From Rhizobium sp. Q54 (GTDB lineage Bacteria > Pseudomonadota > Alphaproteobacteria > Rickettsiales > UBA1997): a stretch of DNA of 42,542 nucleotides. Positions within the stretch are counted from its first letter, which is position 1. Each line of letters starts with the position of its first letter. A program made the position numbers and the translations under genes. The notes beneath the pieces are model-generated. The model did no database searches. It worked only from the letters and a program-made list of their open reading frames with translations, and had not been told where the DNA came from. The DNA is taken from the NCBI GenBank assembly GCA_945875865.1, contig CAMCMF010000010.1, forward strand, positions 1 through 42,542. Direction: 5' to 3'. Below, piece after piece: positions 8,482-42,542 of this stretch.

Positions 8482-9681
8482 ATGCCGAACTTTAACAGAC
8501 TGAAAGACTGCGTCGTTACTAATAAAAACGTGATTCTGCGCGTTGATATCAATGTGCCGATTGTGAATGGAAAAATCGAAGATGACACTCGCATCAAAGC
8601 AGTGATTCCGACGCTGAAATATCTCGCGCAAAACAAAGCGAAGGTAATTGTAATTTCACATTTCGGACGACCGGAAGGTAAGGTTGAAGCTTCGATGTCG
8701 ATTGGACAATTAGTGGCGCGAGTTCAGGAATTGCTTGGTTCGATCAAGGTTAGTTTTGTTGATGATTGTATCGGTGAGAAAGTTCAAAAAGCTGTGTTGG
8801 CCACAAATTATGGCGAAGTAATTATGTTGGAAAATCTGCGCTTCTATAAACAGGAAACCAAAAATGATGCGGAATTTTCACGTGAATTAGCTGCTTTGGG
8901 AAATCTTTACGTCAATGATGCTTTTTCTTGCTCACACCGCGCCCATGCTTCAATCACTGGCATTCCGGCAATTCTAAAATCATGCGCCGGATTTTTGATG
9001 GAATCTGAATTGGATAATCTCACCAATCTTTTAGAAAATGCTAAAAAACCGATGATGGCAGTTGTCGGCGGCGCAAAAGTTTCAACTAAAATTGATCTGT
9101 TAAATTCTTTAGCGACTAAAGCGCAAACCATTGTGGTTGGCGGCGGCATGGCCAATAGTCTTCTTTACGCTTTGGGAAAAAATATCGGTAAATCCTTGTG
9201 CGAAAAAGAGTTGAAAGATACTGCGCTAAAAATCATCGAAACCGCAAAAAATCATGGCTGCAAAATTATTCTTCCTCTCGATGCAATTGTAGTAAAAAAA
9301 TTCGAAGCCGGCGCGGCGCATGAAACTGTAGGAATTGATGATGTAAAAGATGATGACATCATTCTCGATATCGGCTCAGCCTCAATTAAAAATCTTTCTG
9401 AAGAACTAAAAAATCACAAAACTTTACTGTGGAACGGCCCACTCGGCGCTTTTGAAATCAAACCTTTTAACCTTGGAACCGAAGCCTTGGGAAAAGTTGC
9501 CGCCCAACTCACATCTGAAGGAAAATTGCTTTCAATTGCTGGTGGTGGCGATGTGGTTTCTGCTTTGAATACTGCTAATCTTTGTGATCAATTCACTTAC
9601 ATCTCAACTGCCGGCGGAGCATTTTTGGAATGGCTAGAAGGTAAGGAATTACCCGGTGTCCGCGCTTTAAACAGGCTCTAA
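8482..9681 (+). CDS. pgk: Phosphoglycerate kinase
   Basis: This 399-aa cytosolic enzyme transfers phosphate between 1,3-bisphosphoglycerate and ADP in glycolysis or gluconeogenesis. N-domain motifs are VILRVDINVPI and VISHFGRPEG; LENLRFY and SCSHRAHAS follow. The C-domain nucleotide site includes GGAKVSTKIDLLNSL, WNGPLGAFE and the GGGDVVSA loop. The length is normal. The last residues (LNRL) and the stop codon TAA are formed by bases that match the end of repeat family R2, so insertion of the repeat probably remodelled the C-terminus. Confidence 0.97.
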   Translation: MPNFNRLKDCVVTNKNVILRVDINVPIVNGKIEDDTRIKAVIPTLKYLAQNKAKVIVISHFGRPEGKVEASMSIGQLVARVQELLGSIKVSFVDDCIGEKVQKAVLATNYGEVIMLENLRFYKQETKNDAEFSRELAALGNLYVNDAFSCSHRAHASITGIPAILKSCAGFLMESELDNLTNLLENAKKPMMAVVGGAKVSTKIDLLNSLATKAQTIVVGGGMANSLLYALGKNIGKSLCEKELKDTALKIIETAKNHGCKIILPLDAIVVKKFEAGAAHETVGIDDVKDDDIILDIGSASIKNLSEELKNHKTLLWNGPLGAFEIKPFNLGTEALGKVAAQLTSEGKLLSIAGGGDVVSALNTANLCDQFTYISTAGGAFLEWLEGKELPGVRALNRL

Positions 9682-9700
9682 GAGCCTGCTTAATATCTTT
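9669..9700. terminator. Possible terminator at the R2 junction after pgk
   Basis: TAAACAGGCTCT and AGAGCCTGCTTA form a near-perfect short hairpin over the pgk stop, followed at a short distance by CTTTTTT. It arises from back-to-back R2 ends. It looks able to end pgk transcripts, but the T-run does not start directly at the stem. Confidence 0.4.
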
Positions 9701-9844
9701 TTTAATCCCATATTTCGTCCTATTTTTGCTTATTTTTTAGTAAAATTACTCCGAATATACCCGATATGCGTCGTAATTTTACTAAAAAAGCGCTAAAAAT
9801 ATGCCAAAATCTGTGATTAAAAAAGATATTAAACAGGCTCTAAG
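9680..9844. repeat. R2 palindromic element, copy A
   Basis: About 165 bp with long terminal inverted repeats (GAGCCTGCTTAATATC facing GATATTAAACAGGCTC), an inner stem TTTTTTAGTAAAATTA/TAATTTTACTAAAAAA and a small central loop. It is nearly identical to copy B at 13345. It lies exactly between the convergent pgk and SurA-like genes and touches both stop codons. There is no coding capacity, so it is MITE-like. Confidence 0.9.
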
Positions 9845-10826
9845 ATTTCTCGATAAAAGATCTTTTGCGCAAATCCATCAAATAGCCTTTGGCAAGATTT
9901 TGTAGCTTAGCATTGAAGATATGATTTTTTGCGGCATTTAAATCTTGATCGGAAACTTTGCTTTCAGTTTTGGCATCAAGCAATTTGAAAATGTGATAGC
10001 CATCTTCCAATAAAACCGCATCGCTATAGCCATTTTTTAGCAACTTAGATATTGCCGCATAAATTTTTGGATCGATATCAGATTGCGAAACCCAACCGAT
10101 CTCACCGTTATTTTCTGCCGAAATCGCTGAAGAAAATTGCTGCACAATAGTTTTAAAATTTGCACCAGATCTCAACTCATCAACCAACTTAGTAGCAAGC
10201 TGCGCAGCATTTGTGGAGCTATTGATCAAAATCTCGGAGATCAAAAATTTTCTAATGTCGGAATTAAATTTATGCTGCTCGAAAAATTCTTTCACTTCGA
10301 AATCGGTAATTTTTACTTTCGAGCGCAAAATTTCTGACATGATTTTTGACCATAAAATTTCTGCTTCAACTTGCTTCAAATAATTATCGAAAGAGAGATT
10401 TTTTTTGGTAAAAAATAATTTGAACTGCGTGGTATTTTGCTTGCGTTGCAAAGCAATTATTTCGAGAGCATCTCTTATTTCCGTAGGACTGACTTCGAGT
10501 TTTAAATTTTGGGATTCTTGACGAATTAATTCCTCATCGATCATTTTATCCACCACCTGCTGACGCAAAATTTTCTGCTCATTAGCATCCTTAACTCCAA
10601 TTCCAGAACTCGTCAAAACAAAGTGATAACGATCATTCGCTTCAGAAATAGTGATGATTTTATTATTGATTTTAGCGATGACAAAATTTTGAGAAAAAGC
10701 TATCGAGGGGAATAGTAAAAAAACTGCGATTAATTTAGATAAGCACTGTCGCAAATTAAAATTTTCTAAGAAGTTTTTACAAAAAATTCGATGAAAAGTT
10801 TGATTTGCGATAGTGTTCCACATCAT
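9840..10826 (-). CDS. surA: SurA-like periplasmic chaperone / parvulin peptidyl-prolyl isomerase
   Basis: A 328-aa exported protein. A hydrophobic signal segment (about residues 30-45, SKLIAVFLLFPSIAFS) is followed by a SurA-type N-domain (starting FVIAKINNKIITISEAN) and one parvulin domain in the C-terminal half with GEIGWVSQSDI and GYHIFKLLD. SurA helps outer-membrane proteins fold in the periplasm. It has one parvulin domain where E. coli SurA has two. It overlaps the upstream ctpA gene by 4 bases (ATGA). The TAG stop is formed at the edge of repeat R2. The gene symbol is by similarity. Confidence 0.8.
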   Translation of the reverse strand: MMWNTIANQTFHRIFCKNFLENFNLRQCLSKLIAVFLLFPSIAFSQNFVIAKINNKIITISEANDRYHFVLTSSGIGVKDANEQKILRQQVVDKMIDEELIRQESQNLKLEVSPTEIRDALEIIALQRKQNTTQFKLFFTKKNLSFDNYLKQVEAEILWSKIMSEILRSKVKITDFEVKEFFEQHKFNSDIRKFLISEILINSSTNAAQLATKLVDELRSGANFKTIVQQFSSAISAENNGEIGWVSQSDIDPKIYAAISKLLKNGYSDAVLLEDGYHIFKLLDAKTESKVSDQDLNAAKNHIFNAKLQNLAKGYLMDLRKRSFIEKS

Positions 10827-12145: not shown

Positions 12146-12454
12146 GAGATCTGCCGCAAATGTAGCTAAAAAAAATTCTAAAAAAACTCGGTAGAACCCC
12201 CTTTCCCTTTAGTGGAGAGGGGGTTAACCGAGTTTGTTATTGCCGAAACTGATCAAGAAACCGAACTCAAAAGTAAAGAGTCGGTATATGGGGTTCCCCA
12301 CGACCGTGGGGCGCAGGCCATCCTGCGTAAAAACAAAATCAATATACTAAAATCGTCTTCTTGAAGCTGATTTGGTATATTACGTAATTTTCATGCGTAG
12401 ACCCTGGGAGGGTAATTACACCGAGTAAAATTTATCCGTTATAAGGAAACTATT
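12146..12454. repeat. Repeat-filled intergenic region: hairpin plus R1 copy
   Basis: No gene is seen. A hairpin at 12187-12235 (ACTCGGTAGAACCCCC facing GGGGGTTAACCGAGT) is followed by a full R1 element at 12239-12380 (GCCGAAACTGATCAAG to GATTTGGTATAT). A tail contains TTTTCATGCGTAG, as seen near 160. The hairpin could serve as a structured 3' end or leader for the flanking minus-strand genes. Confidence 0.75.
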
Positions 12455-13056: not shown

Positions 13057-13340
13057 TTAGGACTTGCGCGAAACTTTGTCTCGCTTCGATATTTCCATGT
13101 TTAAACCCAGATCCGTCATTAGAAATTCGTCTACTTTGGCTAAAACTTGAAACTGCGCGGTTAAAACAATGTTTTTAAATCCGCACTTACGCTGAGTAAG
13201 TTTACGTTTTAAAAACATTGTTTCGCCCTTCATTTTCAAGCTTTAGCCGAAGTATCCTGAATTTCTAATGAAGGATCTGGGTTGAAAATTTTTTGAAACG
13301 CACGTACATTTATGCGATACTCGCTTTATGTAAGTCCTAA
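13057..13340. repeat. R3 palindromic element (180 bp) inside an outer inverted repeat
   Basis: R3 proper spans 13104-13283, from AACCCAGATCCGTCATTAG to GGATCTGGGTT. It has an inner stem of ACAATGTTTTTAAA facing TTTAAAAACATTGT. A second copy of the same length lies at 31618-31797 in reverse orientation and a truncated one at 29854. The outer 9-base arms TTAGGACTT (13057) and AAGTCCTAA (13332) suggest that it is nested in another element. A 60-aa open frame runs through it, but this is repeat sequence. Confidence 0.85.
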
Positions 13341-13344
13341 TTGT

Positions 13345-13511
13345 CTTAGAGCCTGTTTAATATCTTTTTTAATCCCATATTTCGCCCTATTTTTGCTTAT
13401 TTTTTAGTAAAATTACTCCGAATATACCCGATATGCGTCGTAATTTTACTAAAAAAGCGCTAAAAATATGCCAAAATCTGTAATTAAAAAAGATATTAAA
13501 CAGGCTCTAAG
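13345..13511. repeat. R2 palindromic element, copy B
   Basis: 167 bp, nearly identical to copy A at 9680. The ends CTTAGAGCCTGTTTAATATC and GATATTAAACAGGCTCTAAG are perfect inverted repeats with an outer stem of about 29 bp. It lies just upstream of tyrA, between divergent genes, next to R3. Confidence 0.9.
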
Positions 13512-13597
13512 AAAATTTCATGAAAAAACTATGTGGCTAATAAAATTTAGCAAGTGACTAAAAAACCTATCAAAAAATTGCAACAAACTTTATCAAA

Positions 13598-18369: not shown

Positions 18370-18379
18370 AACACCAAAC

Positions 18380-18521
18380 TATACCGAAACTGATTCAAGA
18401 ACCCGAACTCAAAAATAAAGAGTCGGTATATGGGGTTCCCCACGACCGTGGGGCGCAGGCCATCCTGCGTAAAAACAAAATCAATATACTAAATCGGCTT
18501 CTTGAAGCTGATTTGGTATAT
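18380..18521. repeat. R1 palindromic element between mlaC and the 43-aa gene
   Basis: A full 142-bp copy from TATACCGAAACTGATTCAAG to GAAGCTGATTTGGTATAT. The conserved centre is GGGGTTCCCCACGACCGTGGGGCGCAGG. It lies between convergent transcription units. Its right edge contributes the TGA stop of the small minus-strand gene at 18521. Confidence 0.92.
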
Positions 18522-25514: not shown

Positions 25515-25820
25515 GACAATGACCTCGAATTTTTTCTAGATTTACTTTGTTGCAACTTGCGAATTTCTTTTTAAAAAAATCCTCATATATACCCAATCAG
25601 CTTCAAGAAACCGATTCGGTATATTAATTTTGTTTTTACGCACGAGGGCCTGCGCCCCACGGTCGTGGAAAACCCCATAACCGACTCTTTATTTTTGAGT
25701 TCGGTTTCTTGAATTGGTTTCGGTATATTTCGATTATTAGTTCGCATTAGGGCGCCTCTAAAAAATTAGGATTTTTTGAGATGCCATTTAGTTTAGTCAC
25801 AGCAACATTTCAAAACATCA
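25515..25820. repeat. Intergenic region with R1 copy and shortened R4
   Basis: No gene is seen. A full R1 element in reverse orientation spans about 25587-25728 (TATACCCAATCAGCTTCAAG to GAATTGGTTTCGGTATAT). A 36-base remnant of R4 at 25750-25785 (GGGCGCCTCTAAAAAATTAG to TTTTTTGAGATGCC) keeps only the two ends and folds as a hairpin. Confidence 0.85.
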
Positions 25821-29298: not shown

Positions 29299-29855
29299 TG
29301 CGCATTATACTCTTAACCTTACTCCTTATGTTTAATCTCAATAATGCTTTTGCCGCAAAATATCAAAAAGCCCTTCTCGCCGGAGGTTGTTTTTGGGGTA
29401 TGGAGGAATTGATTCGTGCCGTTGATGGCGTGGTTAAAACTGAAGTGGGTTACAGCGGTGGAACAATAGCAAATCCCACTTATGAAATAATAAAAACTGG
29501 ACTTAGTGGACATGCTGAAAGCATCGAAATTACTTTCGATCCGATGAAAATTTCTTACGAAAAACTTCTGAAATTCTTTTTTACAATTCACAATCCAACC
29601 GAAGAAAATCGCCAGGAAAATGATATTGGCACACAATATCGTTCCGAAATTTTTTATCTAAATGATGAACAAAAAAACACCGCTCTGAAAATTATCGCAC
29701 AAGCAAATCTTTCCGGTGTTTTTAAAAAACCATTAGCAACAAAAGTTACAAAAGCGCAGCAATTTTATCCCGCCGAAGAATATCACCAAAATTATCTGAA
29801 AAAAAATCTTTACGGCTACACTTGTCATCATGTGCGCGAGGAATGGAAGTTTTAA
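29298..29855 (+). CDS. msrA: Peptide methionine sulfoxide reductase MsrA, exported
   Basis: A 185-aa enzyme that repairs methionine-S-sulfoxide in proteins. A signal peptide (MRIILLTLLLMFNLNNAFA) precedes the domain, so it likely works in the periplasm. The catalytic motif GGCFWGMEE has Cys31; GYSGGTIANPTYE, GHAESIEITFDP and GTQYRSEIFY are family blocks. A C-terminal GYTCHH offers a likely resolving Cys. The stop codon TAA is shared with the first bases of a truncated R3 repeat. Confidence 0.95.
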   Translation: MRIILLTLLLMFNLNNAFAAKYQKALLAGGCFWGMEELIRAVDGVVKTEVGYSGGTIANPTYEIIKTGLSGHAESIEITFDPMKISYEKLLKFFFTIHNPTEENRQENDIGTQYRSEIFYLNDEQKNTALKIIAQANLSGVFKKPLATKVTKAQQFYPAEEYHQNYLKKNLYGYTCHHVREEWKF

Positions 29856-29911
29856 CCCAGATCCGTCATTAGAAATTCAGGATAGTTTGGCTAAAGCTTG
29901 AAAATGAAGGG
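29854..29911 (+). repeat. Truncated R3 element after msrA
   Basis: The first 55 or so bases of R3 (AACCCAGATCCGTCATTAG to GAAAATGAAGGGC) are followed directly by R4. The junction lies in GGGC, which is common to both families, so an R4 insertion or recombination removed the rest of R3. Confidence 0.85.
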
Positions 29912-30189
29912 CATCTCTAAAAATTGTCTTTTCTGGTAATTTTAGGTTTTAACAAATTTGCTCGAGAGCACGTATATACCGAATCGACTTCAAGAGGCCG
30001 ATAGGTATATTGATTTTGTTTTTACGCAGGATGGCCCGCGCCCCACAGTCGTGGGGAACCCCATATACCGACTCTTTATTTTTGAGATCGGTTTCTTGAG
30101 TCAGATTCGGCATATCTAATACGCTTACCTTCTCACAAATTTATTAAAACTCAAAATTCCTCGAAAAATCCTAATTTTTAGAGGCGCCC
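29909..30189. repeat. R4 element carrying an R1 insertion
   Basis: R4 ends are GGGCATCTCTAAAAATTGTC (left) and CTAATTTTTAGAGGCGCCC (right). A complete R1 of about 142 bp (29973-30115) splits it. Compared with the uninterrupted R4 at 31812-31964, the R4 sequence GAGCGTATATCTAAT is broken at TATAT, and TATAT/ATAT lies on both sides of R1. This is direct evidence of insertion at a TA-rich site. Confidence 0.88.
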
Positions 30190-30238
30190 ATAACTCACCT
30201 TGATTTCAAATTTTTGCTAAATAACTTCACCCGCTCTG

Positions 30239-31603: not shown

Positions 31604-31617
31604 TTTTGCGGTTTTTA

Positions 31618-31797
31618 AACCCAGATCCGTCATTAGAAATTCAGGATACTTTGGCTAAAGCTTGAAAATGAAGGGCGAAACAATGTTTTTAAAACGTAAG
31701 CTTACTCAGAGTAAGTGCGGATTTAAAAACATTGTTTCAACCGCGCAGTTTCAAGTTTTAGGCAAAGTAGACGAATTTCTAAGGACGGGTCTGGGTT
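31618..31797. repeat. R3 palindromic element between nusA and infB
   Basis: Full 180-bp copy, reverse complement of that at 13104-13283. It runs from AACCCAGATCCGTCATTAG to CGGGTCTGGGTT, with the inner stem ACAATGTTTTTAAA/TTTAAAAACATTGT. It lies 15 bases after the nusA stop. Confidence 0.9.
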
Positions 31798-31811
31798 AAA
31801 GTCGGAATTTA

Positions 31812-31964
31812 GGGCGCCTCTAAAAATTATGATTTTTCAAGGAATTTTGGGTTTTAACAAATTTGCAAGAAGGTTAAGTATATTAGATATACGCTCTCGA
31901 GTTTGCTAAAACCTAAAATTACCGGAAAAGACAATTTTTAGAGACGACCTTTAGAGATGCCCTT
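31812..31964. repeat. R4 palindromic element, uninterrupted copy
   Basis: Begins GGGCGCCTCTAAAAATTATG and ends ACAATTTTTAGAGACGACC plus TTTAGAGATGCCC. The arms pair through GGGTTTTAACAAATTTGC and GCTAAAACCTAAAATTACC. The centre GTATATTAGATATACGCTCTC is the site that is occupied by R1 at 29973. It lies between R3 and the infB start. Confidence 0.88.
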
Positions 31965-36563: not shown

Positions 36564-38154
36564 GGCGTCGTTGTAGTGAAACGATTAATATGACTAGGGT
36601 TAAAAAGAATAAAATTAGGAAAGGAAGTTGGCCGTAAGTTGCATAAATTGTGGTCTGACTATTTTTTATTAATTTCATATCGATCATACCTTCTTCATTC
36701 AAACCAAGCTTGGCAACTACACGACCGAAAGGATCAACCAGCGCGCTAATTCCAGTTCCGGCCACGCGAATAAGTGGAATTCCATATTCGATTGCACGCA
36801 TTCTTGCCATATCAAAATGCTGATAGGGACCACTGCTATTGCCAAACCAAGCATCATTGGTTAGATTCACAAAAATATCGGGAAGATGTTTTTTATCAAC
36901 CACTTCGCTGGAAAAAATTGCTTCGTAACAAACCAAGGGACTAAAGGTAAAACTCTCCGCCATCAGAGTTTGCGGGCCCTCGCCTTCGCTGAATCCCTTG
37001 CCTCCGCCGGTAATTGCATCAACCGCCTCGCTAAGATATAAAAATGATAAATAACGATGCAGCGGTACAAACTCGCCAAAGGGAACCAGGTGATGCTTGT
37101 CATAATGCTGGGTAATACCGGCATTACTCACGACGAAAATACTATTCCATACATCGGGAAATTTTTTCTCCTCTAACTCATTGCGCTTCAGGCGCAAACC
37201 GCCAGTGATCAAAATTCCCTTATTTGGCACGGCTTGGCGCATATATTCCAACAAAGCCTCATCATCATTTATTACGTAAGGCACAGAAGTTTCAGACCAA
37301 ATCACCACATCAATATCATCGATATTTTTTTGATTGGTGGCATAAATATGCTTCAAAAAATTATCACGCTTTTGACCATCGGCCCATTTCATCTCTTGTT
37401 TAATATTGGCTTGAATCAGGCGTATCTTGGTATCGGAGTCGGTGATGATTTTTTTATCATCAATATAAAAATAACCGAAAAGAAAATTTACCAAAAAAAA
37501 GCACAGCAAAAAAGCGGCGAAAATTTTATCGCCAACAGAAGATTTTCTTTTCCAAAATAATGTCGGGGAAAGTCCGATCAGAACAGCAAAAAAACTGAGG
37601 CCATAAATTCCAAAAACACTACCAAGCTGCGCAAAATGTGGTTCGAACATCCAAGCATAGCCGAGCAAATTCCACGGAAATCCACTGAAAAGATTAGAGC
37701 GCAAAACTTCTGCAATCACAAAAAGTAAAGAAAAAACCAAAAGTTTTTGGTAGGCAAAATTGATCTGAAATTTTTTAAGCAAAAATTTGTAAGACAGCGC
37801 CAACAGTCCAAAATAGCAGGCAAGAGCTGATGGAATGATAGTGAGAGCGAAAGGAATCAGCCAACCAAATTGTGCCGCATCAATTAAAAGAGAAATCGCA
37901 ATCCAATAAATTCCACAAAGGAAATGACCAAAGCCAAAGAAAAATCCCAACCAAAAAACTTCGCGCTTTTTGCCACGCTCTTCTTCCAGCAAAAAATAAA
38001 AAATTGAGAAAGAGATTGGCAGCGCCAGAAAAAAATAAATCGGTGCAAAAGCAAGGCTGAGAAAGGCTCCCGCTAAAAATGCCATCACTCTTTTCTTTTG
38101 TAAGAAAGTTTTTACCGCCTTTAATTTAGTTCCTAATATATATTTCCAAGTCAT
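36535..38154 (-). CDS. lnt: Apolipoprotein N-acyltransferase
   Basis: A 539-aa inner-membrane enzyme that adds the third acyl chain to lipoproteins. The first 230 or so residues hold several membrane helices. The nitrilase-like periplasmic domain has the catalytic Glu in VIWSETSVPYV, Lys in YDKHHLVPFGEFVP and Cys in FSPLVCYEAIFS. A last helix (FLILFFLTLVILIVS) and a basic His-rich tail close it. The length is normal. The start overlaps the upstream glycosyltransferase stop by 29 bases. Confidence 0.96.
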   Translation of the reverse strand: MTWKYILGTKLKAVKTFLQKKRVMAFLAGAFLSLAFAPIYFFLALPISFSIFYFLLEEERGKKREVFWLGFFFGFGHFLCGIYWIAISLLIDAAQFGWLIPFALTIIPSALACYFGLLALSYKFLLKKFQINFAYQKLLVFSLLFVIAEVLRSNLFSGFPWNLLGYAWMFEPHFAQLGSVFGIYGLSFFAVLIGLSPTLFWKRKSSVGDKIFAAFLLCFFLVNFLFGYFYIDDKKIITDSDTKIRLIQANIKQEMKWADGQKRDNFLKHIYATNQKNIDDIDVVIWSETSVPYVINDDEALLEYMRQAVPNKGILITGGLRLKRNELEEKKFPDVWNSIFVVSNAGITQHYDKHHLVPFGEFVPLHRYLSFLYLSEAVDAITGGGKGFSEGEGPQTLMAESFTFSPLVCYEAIFSSEVVDKKHLPDIFVNLTNDAWFGNSSGPYQHFDMARMRAIEYGIPLIRVAGTGISALVDPFGRVVAKLGLNEEGMIDMKLIKNSQTTIYATYGQLPFLILFFLTLVILIVSLQRRHAHKKNHTH

Positions 38155-40114
38155 ATAAAATCTGGTTTGGTGAAGGTGTAATTATATCAAAAACACTGGG
38201 TTTTTCGCCGGTAATAAAATTGATTTTTTTCAAAGCTTTCACTTTGTGAGTAATCACAACATGATTTTCAAAATGAAAATTCTCTAGAAAAATTTTACGA
38301 AACTGAGGATCGAGAAAATAATATTCCAGAGTTGGGATTAAACAACGATCACTCTTATCTAAAATTTCTGCGCTATTATTGAAAAAAATTATTTTGATTT
38401 TGGGATTTTTTACGGCGTTTTTTACATCATCAAAAAGATAGGAATAAGCAAAAACCTTGTCCGAATCTTTTATCGCAAACATTAATCTACTTCCTGCTAA
38501 GCCTTGATCTGCCTGAATCACCGCCATATGGAATTTTTGTTGATTATCTTTTTGTAAATAATTCAAAGTCGGAAATTGATGTGCAATCCAAATTGAAACC
38601 ATCAAAAATCCTTCCTCCTTTTCTGGAGCATGTTTTTCGCTGTAATGAGTAATTACATCGGAAAGTTTATTGGGAAATGTGTAAGGACTTTCACGGTTAA
38701 AAACCCCGACAATCGATGAAACATAACAATAAAGCAGCGAAGAAATTGAGGCAAAAATTACGAAAATTGCTAAGGCTGAAAATTTTTTGACAGAATTTTG
38801 CTTTTCAAAAATGAATAAAACAAAAAATGAAATCGTTAAATTCACCGCAACATAAGCCCAAGCGCCCATATATTTCAAGCTTGCAAGCGCTATGATTAAT
38901 AGCAGAAAATATGAAAGGAAAAAGAGAAAAATATTTTTTTTAGAAAAATTTTTACGCTGCAAAAATGGAAAAACCGCCGCAACCAACCACCATAAATTAA
39001 TAAATCCTCCGAGTCCTAAAAAGGCTGCAGGCAGAACTTCCAGATCAAAAATCGGCAATAAAATCACAGTTAAAATAATGAAGCGATTATCGCTAAAAAT
39101 ATTTTTTTCCTGCAGAAAAAGATCGAAGATAAATTTTAAAAAACAGATTGTGGCAATAGCATAAAAGACCACGATCTGATCAATAGTGCCAAGGTTTTCT
39201 ACGATGATCAGAATTAAAGAAGCCAAGAAAAATAAAATCAAAATCTTGTCGTCAGGAGTCATTTTACTGCGCGCAAAAAGCAGAAAAATAAAACCGAACT
39301 GCAGCATAATCGCCAAGTTATGCCAGAAATTTTTTAGAAAAACTTGATAGTCATCATAGACACGGTAAGTCTTTGCCCACATTGGTGGAATAAACTCAAA
39401 ATATTCTGGAGTAAATTTAATCATCAAAAACAAAGTCAGCGCACCAAGTAAACCCATCATTAATTTATCTAATTCTACAAAAAACTTGAGAGATTTTTTT
39501 TGCCAGAAGCGATGGATTTCAATCGGAATTAGCAAAATTAAATAATGGGGCTTGATACATGGAATCAATCCCATCAAGCATCCTCGCCAGATTAAATCTT
39601 TTTTACTAGGAAGGGATTTTCTTTCAAAGGAGTAAGAGATGTAAGGATAAAGTAAGAGTAAGAGTAAACTTGTTTTAGTGCCAAACTCGCCAATTTGTAT
39701 CGCATAAGGACGCAAGAAAAATCCTAAGAAATAAGAAATTATGATGAGATTATAATGCGCTTTATTTTTATGAATTCTGCTGCCCTGCAGAATTTTTGCT
39801 GAGCAAAAAATCGATAAAATAGCTAATAGATTTATAACTATTTCTGAAAGAATAATAGGGCTGAGATGTAAGACTTCCGTAAGTCTGAACTGCAAAGCGT
39901 AGAAGTAAAAAGAGATAGGAAAATTACTTTCAAAAAAATTGAAATAATATTTTTTTCCTTCGGCAACTTTTTTTCCTAGATCAAGATAAACTCCGGTATC
40001 AGCACCAATATCAATTCTAGAGCGCAAAAAAATACTGAAGAGAAAAATCAGCGCAGAGCATCCAAATAAAAAGTTACGGCTTTGACAAAATTTTTCAAAT
40101 TTAGTTGCGAACAT
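38126..40114 (-). CDS. GT-C-type membrane glycosyltransferase, paralogue 2
   Basis: A 662-aa polytopic membrane protein, with about 10-12 helices and a hydrophilic C-terminal domain of some 190 residues. The first periplasmic loop reads IDIGADTGVYLDLGKKVAEG and then YYFNFFESNFPISFYF. The acidic loop residues (D at GAD) match the pattern of PMT/ArnT-like enzymes that take sugar from a polyprenyl phosphate. The acceptor is unknown. It is clearly related to the gene directly upstream (similar loop, similar C-terminal LEYYFLDPQFRKIFLENFHF). It overlaps both neighbours. Confidence 0.75.
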   Translation of the reverse strand: MFATKFEKFCQSRNFLFGCSALIFLFSIFLRSRIDIGADTGVYLDLGKKVAEGKKYYFNFFESNFPISFYFYALQFRLTEVLHLSPIILSEIVINLLAILSIFCSAKILQGSRIHKNKAHYNLIIISYFLGFFLRPYAIQIGEFGTKTSLLLLLLYPYISYSFERKSLPSKKDLIWRGCLMGLIPCIKPHYLILLIPIEIHRFWQKKSLKFFVELDKLMMGLLGALTLFLMIKFTPEYFEFIPPMWAKTYRVYDDYQVFLKNFWHNLAIMLQFGFIFLLFARSKMTPDDKILILFFLASLILIIVENLGTIDQIVVFYAIATICFLKFIFDLFLQEKNIFSDNRFIILTVILLPIFDLEVLPAAFLGLGGFINLWWLVAAVFPFLQRKNFSKKNIFLFFLSYFLLLIIALASLKYMGAWAYVAVNLTISFFVLFIFEKQNSVKKFSALAIFVIFASISSLLYCYVSSIVGVFNRESPYTFPNKLSDVITHYSEKHAPEKEEGFLMVSIWIAHQFPTLNYLQKDNQQKFHMAVIQADQGLAGSRLMFAIKDSDKVFAYSYLFDDVKNAVKNPKIKIIFFNNSAEILDKSDRCLIPTLEYYFLDPQFRKIFLENFHFENHVVITHKVKALKKINFITGEKPSVFDIITPSPNQILYDLEIYIRN

Positions 40115-42260
40115 AAACCTCTACATCCCTTCTTACTCTAGCGCTTTGCGACTCTTTTAAAACCTGATCTTCATTGAAAAACTCTACCTGTTTTTCAGAA
40201 ATTTCGACATCGATAATGCGATTTAAAAAATGATAATTGGAAAGAAAAATTTTCCGAAATTCTGCATCACGCAAATAATATTCCAGAAAGGAAATATGAC
40301 ATTGAGCAGAATCATTTTTTATCTCGACAAAAATTAGTTGATTATTCTCCTTTCTCATTTGTTCTTTAAGGCTTGAAAATAAATGCTTGAAACCACGTTG
40401 ATCTTTATTTTCTTTCGTCACCACTATTTGATAAAATAACAATGGCATTTGTAGCGAAGGTAATTGATTTATTTTATTCATGTAAGTTATCGCCGGATAA
40501 GCGCCAAGAATAATTTCAGAAATAATTATCACCTCTCTTTCCTTGTCACTATTAGCTTTAGTGGTTTTTATCATTTCCGAATTTAGATGATTTGGTGATT
40601 TATAATTAAAGGCATTCTGATGAAATTTTAAATTAAAAATCGCCGCTACTTGTAATGAGATAAAATAAGATATGACCAACAGCACTACAACTTTAGAGAA
40701 TAGAGAAAATTTTTTCTGATAAGAATCTAACATCAAAATAAATAGAATTGCTGATAAAATCCAAGCTAGAAAAGCTGTGGAGCGACTGAAGAACAAGGCT
40801 ATAACCGCGATTGCGACAAAAGAAAAACTAAGCCAAGAAATTAAATCATTCGGGGAAAAAAGATTTTTCTGCAGTGAATCTTTATTTTTTCTTAAGGCAT
40901 GAACCAAAGTAAAAACCCACCAGAAAGCACAAATATCAAGAGCTAGAGCAAAAATATTTTTTGGGTCGGAGAGTGGAATTAATAGTAAAAAAAATAACAA
41001 AATTCCCTGGCGACGAAAATCAAAATAACTATCACGCAGCAAGAAAAAACAACTCAACGCGAGAGTTGGTAGAAAAAATGAGTAGATAATAAATCTCTGA
41101 TCGTAGCCGCCAATCATCTCGGAGATAACAATCAAAATTGCAGCTAAATTGAATAGATAAAATTCTTGCAAAAATGGATATTTTTTACTCAAAAAACGAG
41201 TCAAAAATATAAATAGGAATAATGGAAAAATATCTTCTTTTATGATGAGATGGATCGCCGATGAAGCCACTTGGTAGTAAGAAGAAGAAAGAATTGAGAA
41301 ATTTTTTATATAGTCGGGATGAAAGAAAAAAATCAGCCAAAAATAAAAGAATAAAATAGCTAATGTGAGGTAATTTCTTAGACAAAAAGCGCTAAAAATA
41401 TACCCAATCAGCTTCAAGAAGCCGATTCGGTATATTGATTTTGTTTTTACGCAGGATGACCTGCGCCCCACATTGTGGGGAACCCCATATACCGACTCTT
41501 TATTTTTTAGTTCGGTAACTTGAATCAGTTTTGCTATATTACGATTTTTTAGTAACTTCTTAGCTTCAAAAATTATCACCAAAATTCCGTAATTTGGCTT
41601 CAAGCAAAAAATCATTCCTGCCAAAATTCCCATCATGATTTGATCGAATTTTTTTAACTGCGCTTCATTTAGCAAATGATAGGAAAAATAAGGAAAAACT
41701 AATACCAAAAAATAACTAGTCTTAGTCGCGAATTCATTGAATTGTAGCGTAAAAATGCGCAAGAAAAATGCTGCAGTAAAACTTAAAATTATTAAATTAA
41801 AAACTTTGCGATCCTTGAATAATTCTGATCTCAATAAAATTTTATAAGAAAAATAAACCGTTGAAATTCCCGCTAAATTTATAAAAATTTCTGTCGTGAT
41901 AATTGGACTAATCGCCAAGGTTTTTGCGAAGAAAACCGGAATGATCGTCAGCCAAAAAGATAGTGGAAAATTCAGCTCAAAAAAATCATAATAATATCTA
42001 CCTCCAGCCAGCATCTTTTCTGCGATCTCAAGATAGGTTGCCGAATCATGTCCTATATCACGAGCCGAACGAATAAAAATGCTGGTTGCGATGATTATTA
42101 AACAACCAAAAAAAACGCTATTTTTTGTAACAAAAATCTGTCCGCAATAGGAAAGAAAAATCGACATTTTTTTGAGCAAAAATTCTTCAAATTTTTTTCC
42201 TAAAACTAATCTTTTTTCCTCGACATTTTTTTGAATCTCAATGACATTAAATTTTTGCAT
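40101..42260 (-). CDS. GT-C-type membrane glycosyltransferase, paralogue 1, with in-frame R1 insertion
   Basis: A 719-aa polytopic membrane protein related to the next gene: the first loop is RDIGHDSATYLEIAEKMLAG with YYYDFFELNFPLSFW, and the C-terminal end is LEYYLRDAEFRKIFLSNYHF. The family role would be transfer of a sugar from a lipid-phosphate donor; the substrate is unknown. At residues ~241-287, KESVYGVPHNVGRRSSCVKT and the following residues are encoded by a complete R1 repeat (41399-41539). This adds 47 hydrophilic-to-mixed residues between two helices, and the reading frame stays open. Its stop overlaps paralogue 2 by 14 bases. Confidence 0.78.
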   Translation of the reverse strand: MQKFNVIEIQKNVEEKRLVLGKKFEEFLLKKMSIFLSYCGQIFVTKNSVFFGCLIIIATSIFIRSARDIGHDSATYLEIAEKMLAGGRYYYDFFELNFPLSFWLTIIPVFFAKTLAISPIITTEIFINLAGISTVYFSYKILLRSELFKDRKVFNLIILSFTAAFFLRIFTLQFNEFATKTSYFLVLVFPYFSYHLLNEAQLKKFDQIMMGILAGMIFCLKPNYGILVIIFEAKKLLKNRNIAKLIQVTELKNKESVYGVPHNVGRRSSCVKTKSIYRIGFLKLIGYIFSAFCLRNYLTLAILFFYFWLIFFFHPDYIKNFSILSSSYYQVASSAIHLIIKEDIFPLFLFIFLTRFLSKKYPFLQEFYLFNLAAILIVISEMIGGYDQRFIIYSFFLPTLALSCFFLLRDSYFDFRRQGILLFFLLLIPLSDPKNIFALALDICAFWWVFTLVHALRKNKDSLQKNLFSPNDLISWLSFSFVAIAVIALFFSRSTAFLAWILSAILFILMLDSYQKKFSLFSKVVVLLVISYFISLQVAAIFNLKFHQNAFNYKSPNHLNSEMIKTTKANSDKEREVIIISEIILGAYPAITYMNKINQLPSLQMPLLFYQIVVTKENKDQRGFKHLFSSLKEQMRKENNQLIFVEIKNDSAQCHISFLEYYLRDAEFRKIFLSNYHFLNRIIDVEISEKQVEFFNEDQVLKESQSARVRRDVEVYVRN
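41399..41539 (-). repeat. R1 palindromic element inserted in frame in a protein gene
   Basis: From TATACCCAATCAGCTTCAAG to TTGAATCAGTTTTGCTATAT, 141 bp, a multiple of three, with the same GC-rich centre (GCGCCCCACATTGTGGGG) as intergenic copies. It is read without a stop in the gene's frame on the minus strand. Base composition and codons differ clearly from the surrounding gene. Confidence 0.92.
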
Positions 42261-42542
42261 TTATTACAGACTAATTGGTTGAAATATTGGAGTGTGGATG
42301 GAAGATTGAGAGGCTATATCCTCGATATAGGTATCTCTAAAAATTGTCTTTTCTGGTAATCTTAGGTTTTAACAAATTTGCTTGAGGGTACGTATATACC
42401 CATTCGACTTGAACATACCGAACTTCTCATTCTTCCGGTTTGTCATCCCCGCGAAGGCGGGGATCCAGCTCTTCGTAAAGACCTTCTGGATCCCCGCCTT
42501 CGCGGGGATGACAAACTATAGTTCGGTAACTTGAATCAGTTT
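42261..42542. repeat. Nested repeats: R4 left half, R1 ends, R5 in the centre
   Basis: R4 starts near 42328 (GGTATCTCTAAAAATTGTC) and passes at 42390 into R1 (CGTATATACCCATTCGAC). The R1 core is replaced at about 42438-42524 by R5, an inverted repeat of GTTTGTCATCCCCGCGAAGG and CCTTCGCGGGGATGACAAAC. R1 resumes (GTTCGGTAACTTGAATCAG) and runs off the window. No gene is seen. Confidence 0.85.

Follow-up and report, generated by a model that had tools for sequence, protein, structure and literature searches.

In this study, we showed that a 140-bp palindromic repeat, R1, belongs to a large repeat family in the genome of a freshwater member of the order Rickettsiales and lies in frame inside a membrane-protein gene. 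We consider it highly probable that R1 is a non-autonomous, TA-inserting MITE, most likely moved by an IS630/Tc1-type transposase, and that one copy has entered a gene in frame so as to add 46 residues to its product. The window, that is the whole stretch of DNA that was analysed (42,542 nucleotides), is contig C10 of a MAG of 1,507,958 bp in 57 contigs, labelled G000 below; other G and L labels denote further genomes and stretches. An earlier note, made from the window alone, had set the host apart from Rickettsia, naming a cbb3 oxidase. The oxidase genes indeed match COX1 and FixO, and the host is not Rickettsia at genus level, but it shares the order with Rickettsia: it is a non-Rickettsia member of the Rickettsiales.

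The R1 copy in the gene runs from TA to TA within an intact ORF of 719 codons and brings in no stop, so that the repeat is translatable in frame as the earlier note had claimed. That note gave the element 141 bp and the insert 47 residues at about 241-287; its place and its open reading frame were correct, but base 41539 is flank outside the R1 unit (140 bp, 41399-41538), and once one TA is deducted, 138 bp, or 46 codons, are inserted at residues about 243-288. When the 138 bp were excised and one TA was kept, following the TA-duplication model, 673 codons were left, and this version aligned with five homologues with no gap at the insertion site; the join reads KNRNIFSAFCLRNY, where an example homologue has KKRNFLSVFCLRNY. 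The alignment of paralogue and homologues that had been suggested was performed with MAFFT using rows above 250 bits. The 46 residues were missing in 17 of 17 rows other than the insert-bearing P0001, namely in the tandem paralogue, for which the absence had been correctly stated, and in 16 further rows; in a wider 28-row set the stretch was present in P0001 alone. The window protein was matched in 22 of 47 genomes, its own included. Its earlier label as a GT-C glycosyltransferase stays unconfirmed, with nothing above cut-off in Pfam or NCBIfam and an empty PDB search by a 16-row profile. AlphaFold models of both window paralogues had a pLDDT of 36, were unusable and were set aside.

Coordinates of R1, its parts and related features (window positions unless a stretch is named)
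Feature	Position	Strand	Remark
Tandem paralogue	38126..40114	-	without R1 insert
Host gene carrying R1	40101..42260	-	719-codon multi-pass membrane protein
R1 element	41399..41538	+	140 bp; 46 near-full copies aligned in G000
Left end	41399..41434	+	terminal repeat folding as hairpin by itself
Core hairpin 1	41450..41465	+	6-bp stem, covarying among species
Core hairpin 2	41466..41480	+	CCCCAC / GTGGGG, five of six pairs invariant
Right terminal inverted repeat	41517..41538	+	two differences from search consensus in last 20 bases
R1 copy	12238..12379	-	no surrounding ORF >= 60 aa
R1 copy	18379..18520	-	no surrounding ORF >= 60 aa
R1 copy	25588..25728	+	no surrounding ORF >= 60 aa
R1 copy at TA in centre of R3	29975..30115	+	filled site
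R1-type ends around different palindromic cargo	42385..42542	+	contig ends within element
Insert of unrelated palindrome, AGAACCTGTTCAAAATCTC ends	L056:2840-4339 (G013)		49 residues, in frame, same loop

The insert counts 9 K/R against 2 D/E, lacks any hydrophobic segment and is placed between the hydrophobic segments 211-231 and 292-316 of the protein; judged from this charge, the loop that bears it probably faces the cytoplasm. This R1 copy is closed in five of its six frames and open in the one that the gene uses. An open frame also occurred in 39% of resampled sequences, which means that openness by itself does not prove selection. Folded as RNA, the copy reached -48.1 kcal/mol (z = -5.75), and none of 200 shuffles was equally low. 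Such strong hairpins would also suit an insert that is bypassed or removed at the RNA level rather than translated, as with the hairpin byps of some mitochondria, and since the in-gene copies were found via open ORFs, it is in part the search itself that makes them open and divisible by three in length. We regard bypass as very unlikely, because 19 of 25 frames unused by the gene were closed in the five inserts checked and the join in the window gene is exact to the residue; this counter-evidence is partly circular, and bypass was therefore rated higher than at first. That the assembly wrongly joined parts of genes via the repeat is extremely improbable: repeats do end contigs in this assembly, the window contig included, but the two flanks are halves of one gene and no residue is lost or gained on the TA model.

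A search of G000 with the 141-bp query gave at least 52 matches (40 of 81 candidates scored), and when the window and the retrieved stretches were searched again, 58 matches were obtained. Forty-six of them were near-full, that is matched from query base 25 or earlier through base 115 or later, a number that is a lower bound. The near-full copies are 79-100% identical (the 79% copy bears a 20-base insertion), 43 of the 46 measure 140-141 bp and 42 have TA at both ends. Tandem copies, spaced 138-139 bp, have a single TA in common. R3, a different palindromic repeat, has an R1 copy in its middle at 29975-30115, and comparison with uninterrupted R3, for whose centre 13 near-matches were found, revealed a TA duplication in this nested pair of empty and filled sites. 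The terminal inverted repeats are imperfect and about 22-30 bp long by eye; the right-end pattern occurred at 80 places with up to three mismatches versus none in the reversed control. Further elements with R1-type ends carry other palindromes inside, and the G000 places with a terminal repeat and no R1 core, inspected over 330 bases each, held mostly short palindromic cargo or other repeats and in some cases a lone end. Because R1 is short, has many copies and no transposase gene of its own, and shows terminal inverted repeats and TA target duplication, it is by its structure a TA-targeting MITE, a nature that had not been foreseen in the earlier note. The reading frame used by the window gene is open in 35 of the 46 copies; the net length is divisible by three in 22, of which 16 are open.

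As to the mover, mobilisation in trans by an IS630/Tc1-type transposase appears most likely from the sequences compared. In the sister genomes G008 and G019, three elements of about 950 bp contain DDE_3 in two overlapping frames, and one element has a stop within the DDE_3 match; an HTH_Tnp_IS630 match was shown for one of the three, and their ends start TATACCAAA. A MITE with an R1-type core in G016 has a right end that equals an end of a G019 element in 25 of 25 bases, in two different genomes. DDE_3 was present in 6 of 20 genomes of the host's genus (E <= 0.01) and in 8 of 61 genomes of its family (1e-10). Within G000 itself, the family-model search gave no DDE_3 match, part of the G019 transposase used as a query gave no match either, and no cognate autonomous element with R1's own ends was found. 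Over the outer 14 bases, R1 ends share 8 to 12 with the IS630-type ends of G008 and G019, a figure that comes without a chance level, and some other IS630-type elements of the host's family, e.g. L117 and L392, have different ends. The DDE_3 gap in G000, the partial agreement of ends, the differing IS630 ends and a second end type described below were all counted against IS630 mobilisation. In the mechanism that we favour, R1 would go into TA dinucleotides and duplicate them, moved by a transposase of this type supplied in trans. One copy would have entered the loop of the membrane-protein gene in the sole open orientation and phase, and the ribosome would read through it to give a protein with 46 extra, mostly basic residues. 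Selection would purge insertions that break frames and spare those that are tolerated.

A count of R1 copies inside ORFs, as suggested by the earlier note, gave one of the 46 near-full copies of G000 inside a gene by our reading, so that in the host's own genome the in-gene copy would be an exception. The ORF listing had 47 rows, for the 46 near-full copies and one partial copy. Stop-to-stop frames of at least 60 codons surrounded 33 of the 46 copies and frames of at least 200 codons five, among which only the window gene was counted as interrupted: the Pfam match of L089 and that of L100 start downstream of the element, and L093 and L108 were excluded by eye. At least three further copies provide the final codons and stop of ORFs in G000. 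Among these ORFs, Pfam matches one to an acyltransferase and another to a family-2 glycosyltransferase; a third has no Pfam match, and we take it to be tatB-like.

In the sister species, in-frame entry recurs. Among 48 core matches (39 in G018, five in G015, three in G017 and one in G016), 17 lay in a frame of at least 110 codons; seven of these are inside six genes, two are gene ends and eight were dropped by eye as upstream or spurious (L208, L211, L217, L220, L222, L223 twice and L234). The G018 genes with a core are a paralogue of the window gene and those for an Xaa-Pro aminopeptidase, MurD, YbeY (two units) and BioD, and in G017 a family-1/4 glycosyltransferase gene contains a copy; a ZnuA-like gene and the CcmH gene of G018 each end in a core element. 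From 77 further core matches came seven in-frame candidates, of which L342, L367 and L386 were set aside and four are inside genes. These include a transketolase N-subunit gene with a core in both G017 and G012, taken as one event since the two contigs are 99.2% identical over 2.3 kb, as well as an MFS protein gene of G017 and the CCA-adding enzyme gene of G018. An aminotransferase-family gene (BioF-like) of G013 contains an in-frame copy too (L296, truncated at the contig end), and the G017 homologue of the window gene has two tandem units. In total, in-frame copies were found in 12 genes of four species, in G000, G018, G017 (with G012) and G013.

The support for these 12 is uneven among genes. 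The 28-residue insert of the G018 aminopeptidase is missing in 18 of 18 other rows, and the inserts of three window-gene homologues are each limited to one of 28 rows; an N-terminal stretch flagged in L035 in the same comparison was left out. In the CCA-adding enzyme, a stretch of 45 residues corresponds to four in the best solved homologue; this insert presumably sits immediately before the catalytic DxD motif. In the transketolase, 45 unaligned residues stand against 10, and in the MFS protein and the aminotransferase the Pfam match continues on either side of the insert. The MurD insert lies within a loop of variable length, and those of YbeY, BioD and the glycosyltransferase are candidate in-gene copies, proposed from a core match in an open frame. 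All in-gene copies were found via open ORFs, so gene-breaking copies would escape this search. The proposal of the earlier note that R1 inserts in frame in the manner of Rickettsia palindromic elements (RPE) was well supported by this recurrence. A different reading takes R1 as an intergenic repeat that reached a gene once, by a neutral accident, and denies any broader pattern of protein-coding palindromes; the single in-gene copy among 46 in G000 and the two changes in its right end would fit it, but the core elements in frame elsewhere (seven of 48, in six genes, four of 77, L296 and the G017 double unit) make it unlikely.

Within the family of the window protein, three palindromes entered only a few residues apart: R1 in G000, an oppositely oriented R1-type copy in G018 and, in G013, a palindrome unrelated to them. 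Under random placement, three out of four sites would fall within a span of nine residues with a probability of 0.0019, in a test chosen post hoc, and we read the shared site as a tolerant loop. In-frame stretches that are palindromic by eye were also seen in aminopeptidase genes of G005 (L277), G009 (L279) and G006 (L269), and near the N terminus of an aminopeptidase gene of G017 (L262).

The hairpins of the R1 core covary when units from different genomes are aligned. The 96 units compared for hairpin 1 yielded 37 distinct stems, which were 88.7% paired in a count that kept out-of-register rows, while column shuffles had a mean of 68.2% and a maximum of 75.7% in 2000. The test of the core used 27 of 58 distinct core units: 98.5% of cells were paired versus 86.1% in shuffles, 39 cells were altered on both sides versus 9.6, and the covariation score was 0.357 versus 0.111, values that 0 of 500 shuffles reached in each case. 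Two other measures were not outstanding, namely the number of pairs with a double change (5 versus 4.1 in shuffles, 172/500) and the number of pair types (11 versus 9.3, 59/500).

The same core occurs with two types of ends. TATACC-like ends are found in R1, G018, G298, G021 and part of G012, and the second type, TCCTTTATCCCTTCGGGATACGG without TATACC ends, in G019, G002, G017 and one element of G012. At L066:1440-1600 in G021, from another genus of the family, an R1-like element was seen whose first hairpin differs, and G018 has short head-to-tail arrays of core units of about 48 bp (L081, L124 and L146). The pattern of the second hairpin was present in 5 of 47 genomes, the own one included, and GTDB genomes contributed 30 stretches with it, 29 of which come from MAGs titled Rickettsiales, Rickettsia or Alphaproteobacteria; viral contigs gave no match to it. 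The remaining stretch (L147, Phycisphaerae) is an exact match outside the Rickettsiales, perhaps by chance. A covariance model of the core had matches in 15 of 343 genomes of the order, every one in one family (f1) and in 5 of 134 genera; this search used stricter filters with 17 candidates scored per genome, and its copy numbers are lower bounds.

The remark in the earlier note that R1 does not look like a published family is consistent with there being no Rfam match in the window and no core match beyond one family of the order; for RPE it was judged by description. True homology of R1 with the palindromic elements of Rickettsia or Wolbachia would fit the shared order, size and in-frame insertion habit as far as the available excerpts describe them, but the restriction of the core model to one family, in 15 of the 343 genomes, and the empty Rfam search of the window make it decidedly unlikely. 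In a broader joint reading, possible but somewhat less likely than not, one Rickettsiales family would have a transposable palindrome of its own, with a covarying core, exchanged ends and repeated in-frame entry into conserved genes, including the entry into the CCA-adding enzyme and that of three palindromes, one of them unrelated, into one loop; on this reading, the spread of protein-coding palindromes would be explained by IS630-type transposition.

The following comparisons rest on the parts of the cited papers that were accessible. RPE are described as 105-146 bp long and in frame in Rickettsia genes, with the target duplication given as '?' (PMC2229807). They are reported from every sequenced Rickettsia and Wolbachia species (PMC3767692), one lies in a pentose-phosphate gene of a Torix Rickettsia (PMC5656822), and they vary among R. 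felis strains (PMC4316617); in R. conorii, nearly half are in ORFs, from three of ten families (PMC10969869). R1 resembles them as a palindrome of about 100-150 bp that is in frame in protein genes within the Rickettsiales. It differs in its genus, in the visible TA duplication and in having one of 46 copies in genes in its host, compared with nearly half in R. conorii, and the likeness is one of description. By habit, R1 in a gene works like an RPE, whether or not it descends from one. Inserts like the Wolbachia palindromic element are in frame in the recombination genes addA, addB and priA (PMC4224334), an in-frame palindrome again, likened by description, with Wolbachia as its host.

Among MITE-like repeats, RUP of Streptococcus pneumoniae is like R1 in its size of 107 bp, its TA sites and its proposed mover IS630-Spn1, but it is described as lying between genes, with every one of its six frames closed by stops (PMC2229807). 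Correia/NEMIS of Neisseria is likewise short, bears terminal repeats and TA ends and duplicates its target (PMC2229807), but has another host and reported regulatory roles (PMC10969869). ERIC, of 127 bp, has TA ends and open frames, and intragenic copies are mentioned (PMC10969869, PMC2229807), but it belongs to enterobacteria. Both are likened to R1 by description.

A literature search by title and abstract opening found no protein-coding palindromes in other Rickettsiales, which is weak evidence of absence. So far such palindromes are described mainly from Rickettsia and Wolbachia, and the review texts, as far as available, name no mover. The present case adds another Rickettsiales lineage, in which the TA duplication can be seen and a sister element shares its end with an IS630-type element. 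The manner in which such palindromes spread, and the reason why genes tolerate them, thereby become testable, and the genes described here would show in nature how mobile DNA can lengthen conserved proteins by added peptides.

Other repeats were also observed in the window. A second palindromic repeat, R2, lies at 9677-9874 and 13344-13541 (91% identical, inverted arms of 82 and 87 nt), and an interspersed repeat containing CCCAGATCCGTCATTAGAAATTC at 13100-13290, 29847-29912 and 31613-31800. R3 was found at 29914-29974 with 30127-30196 (split by R1), 31819-31951 and 42334-42389; the reverse apparently occurs in L150, where an R1 copy looks split by an R3-like repeat.
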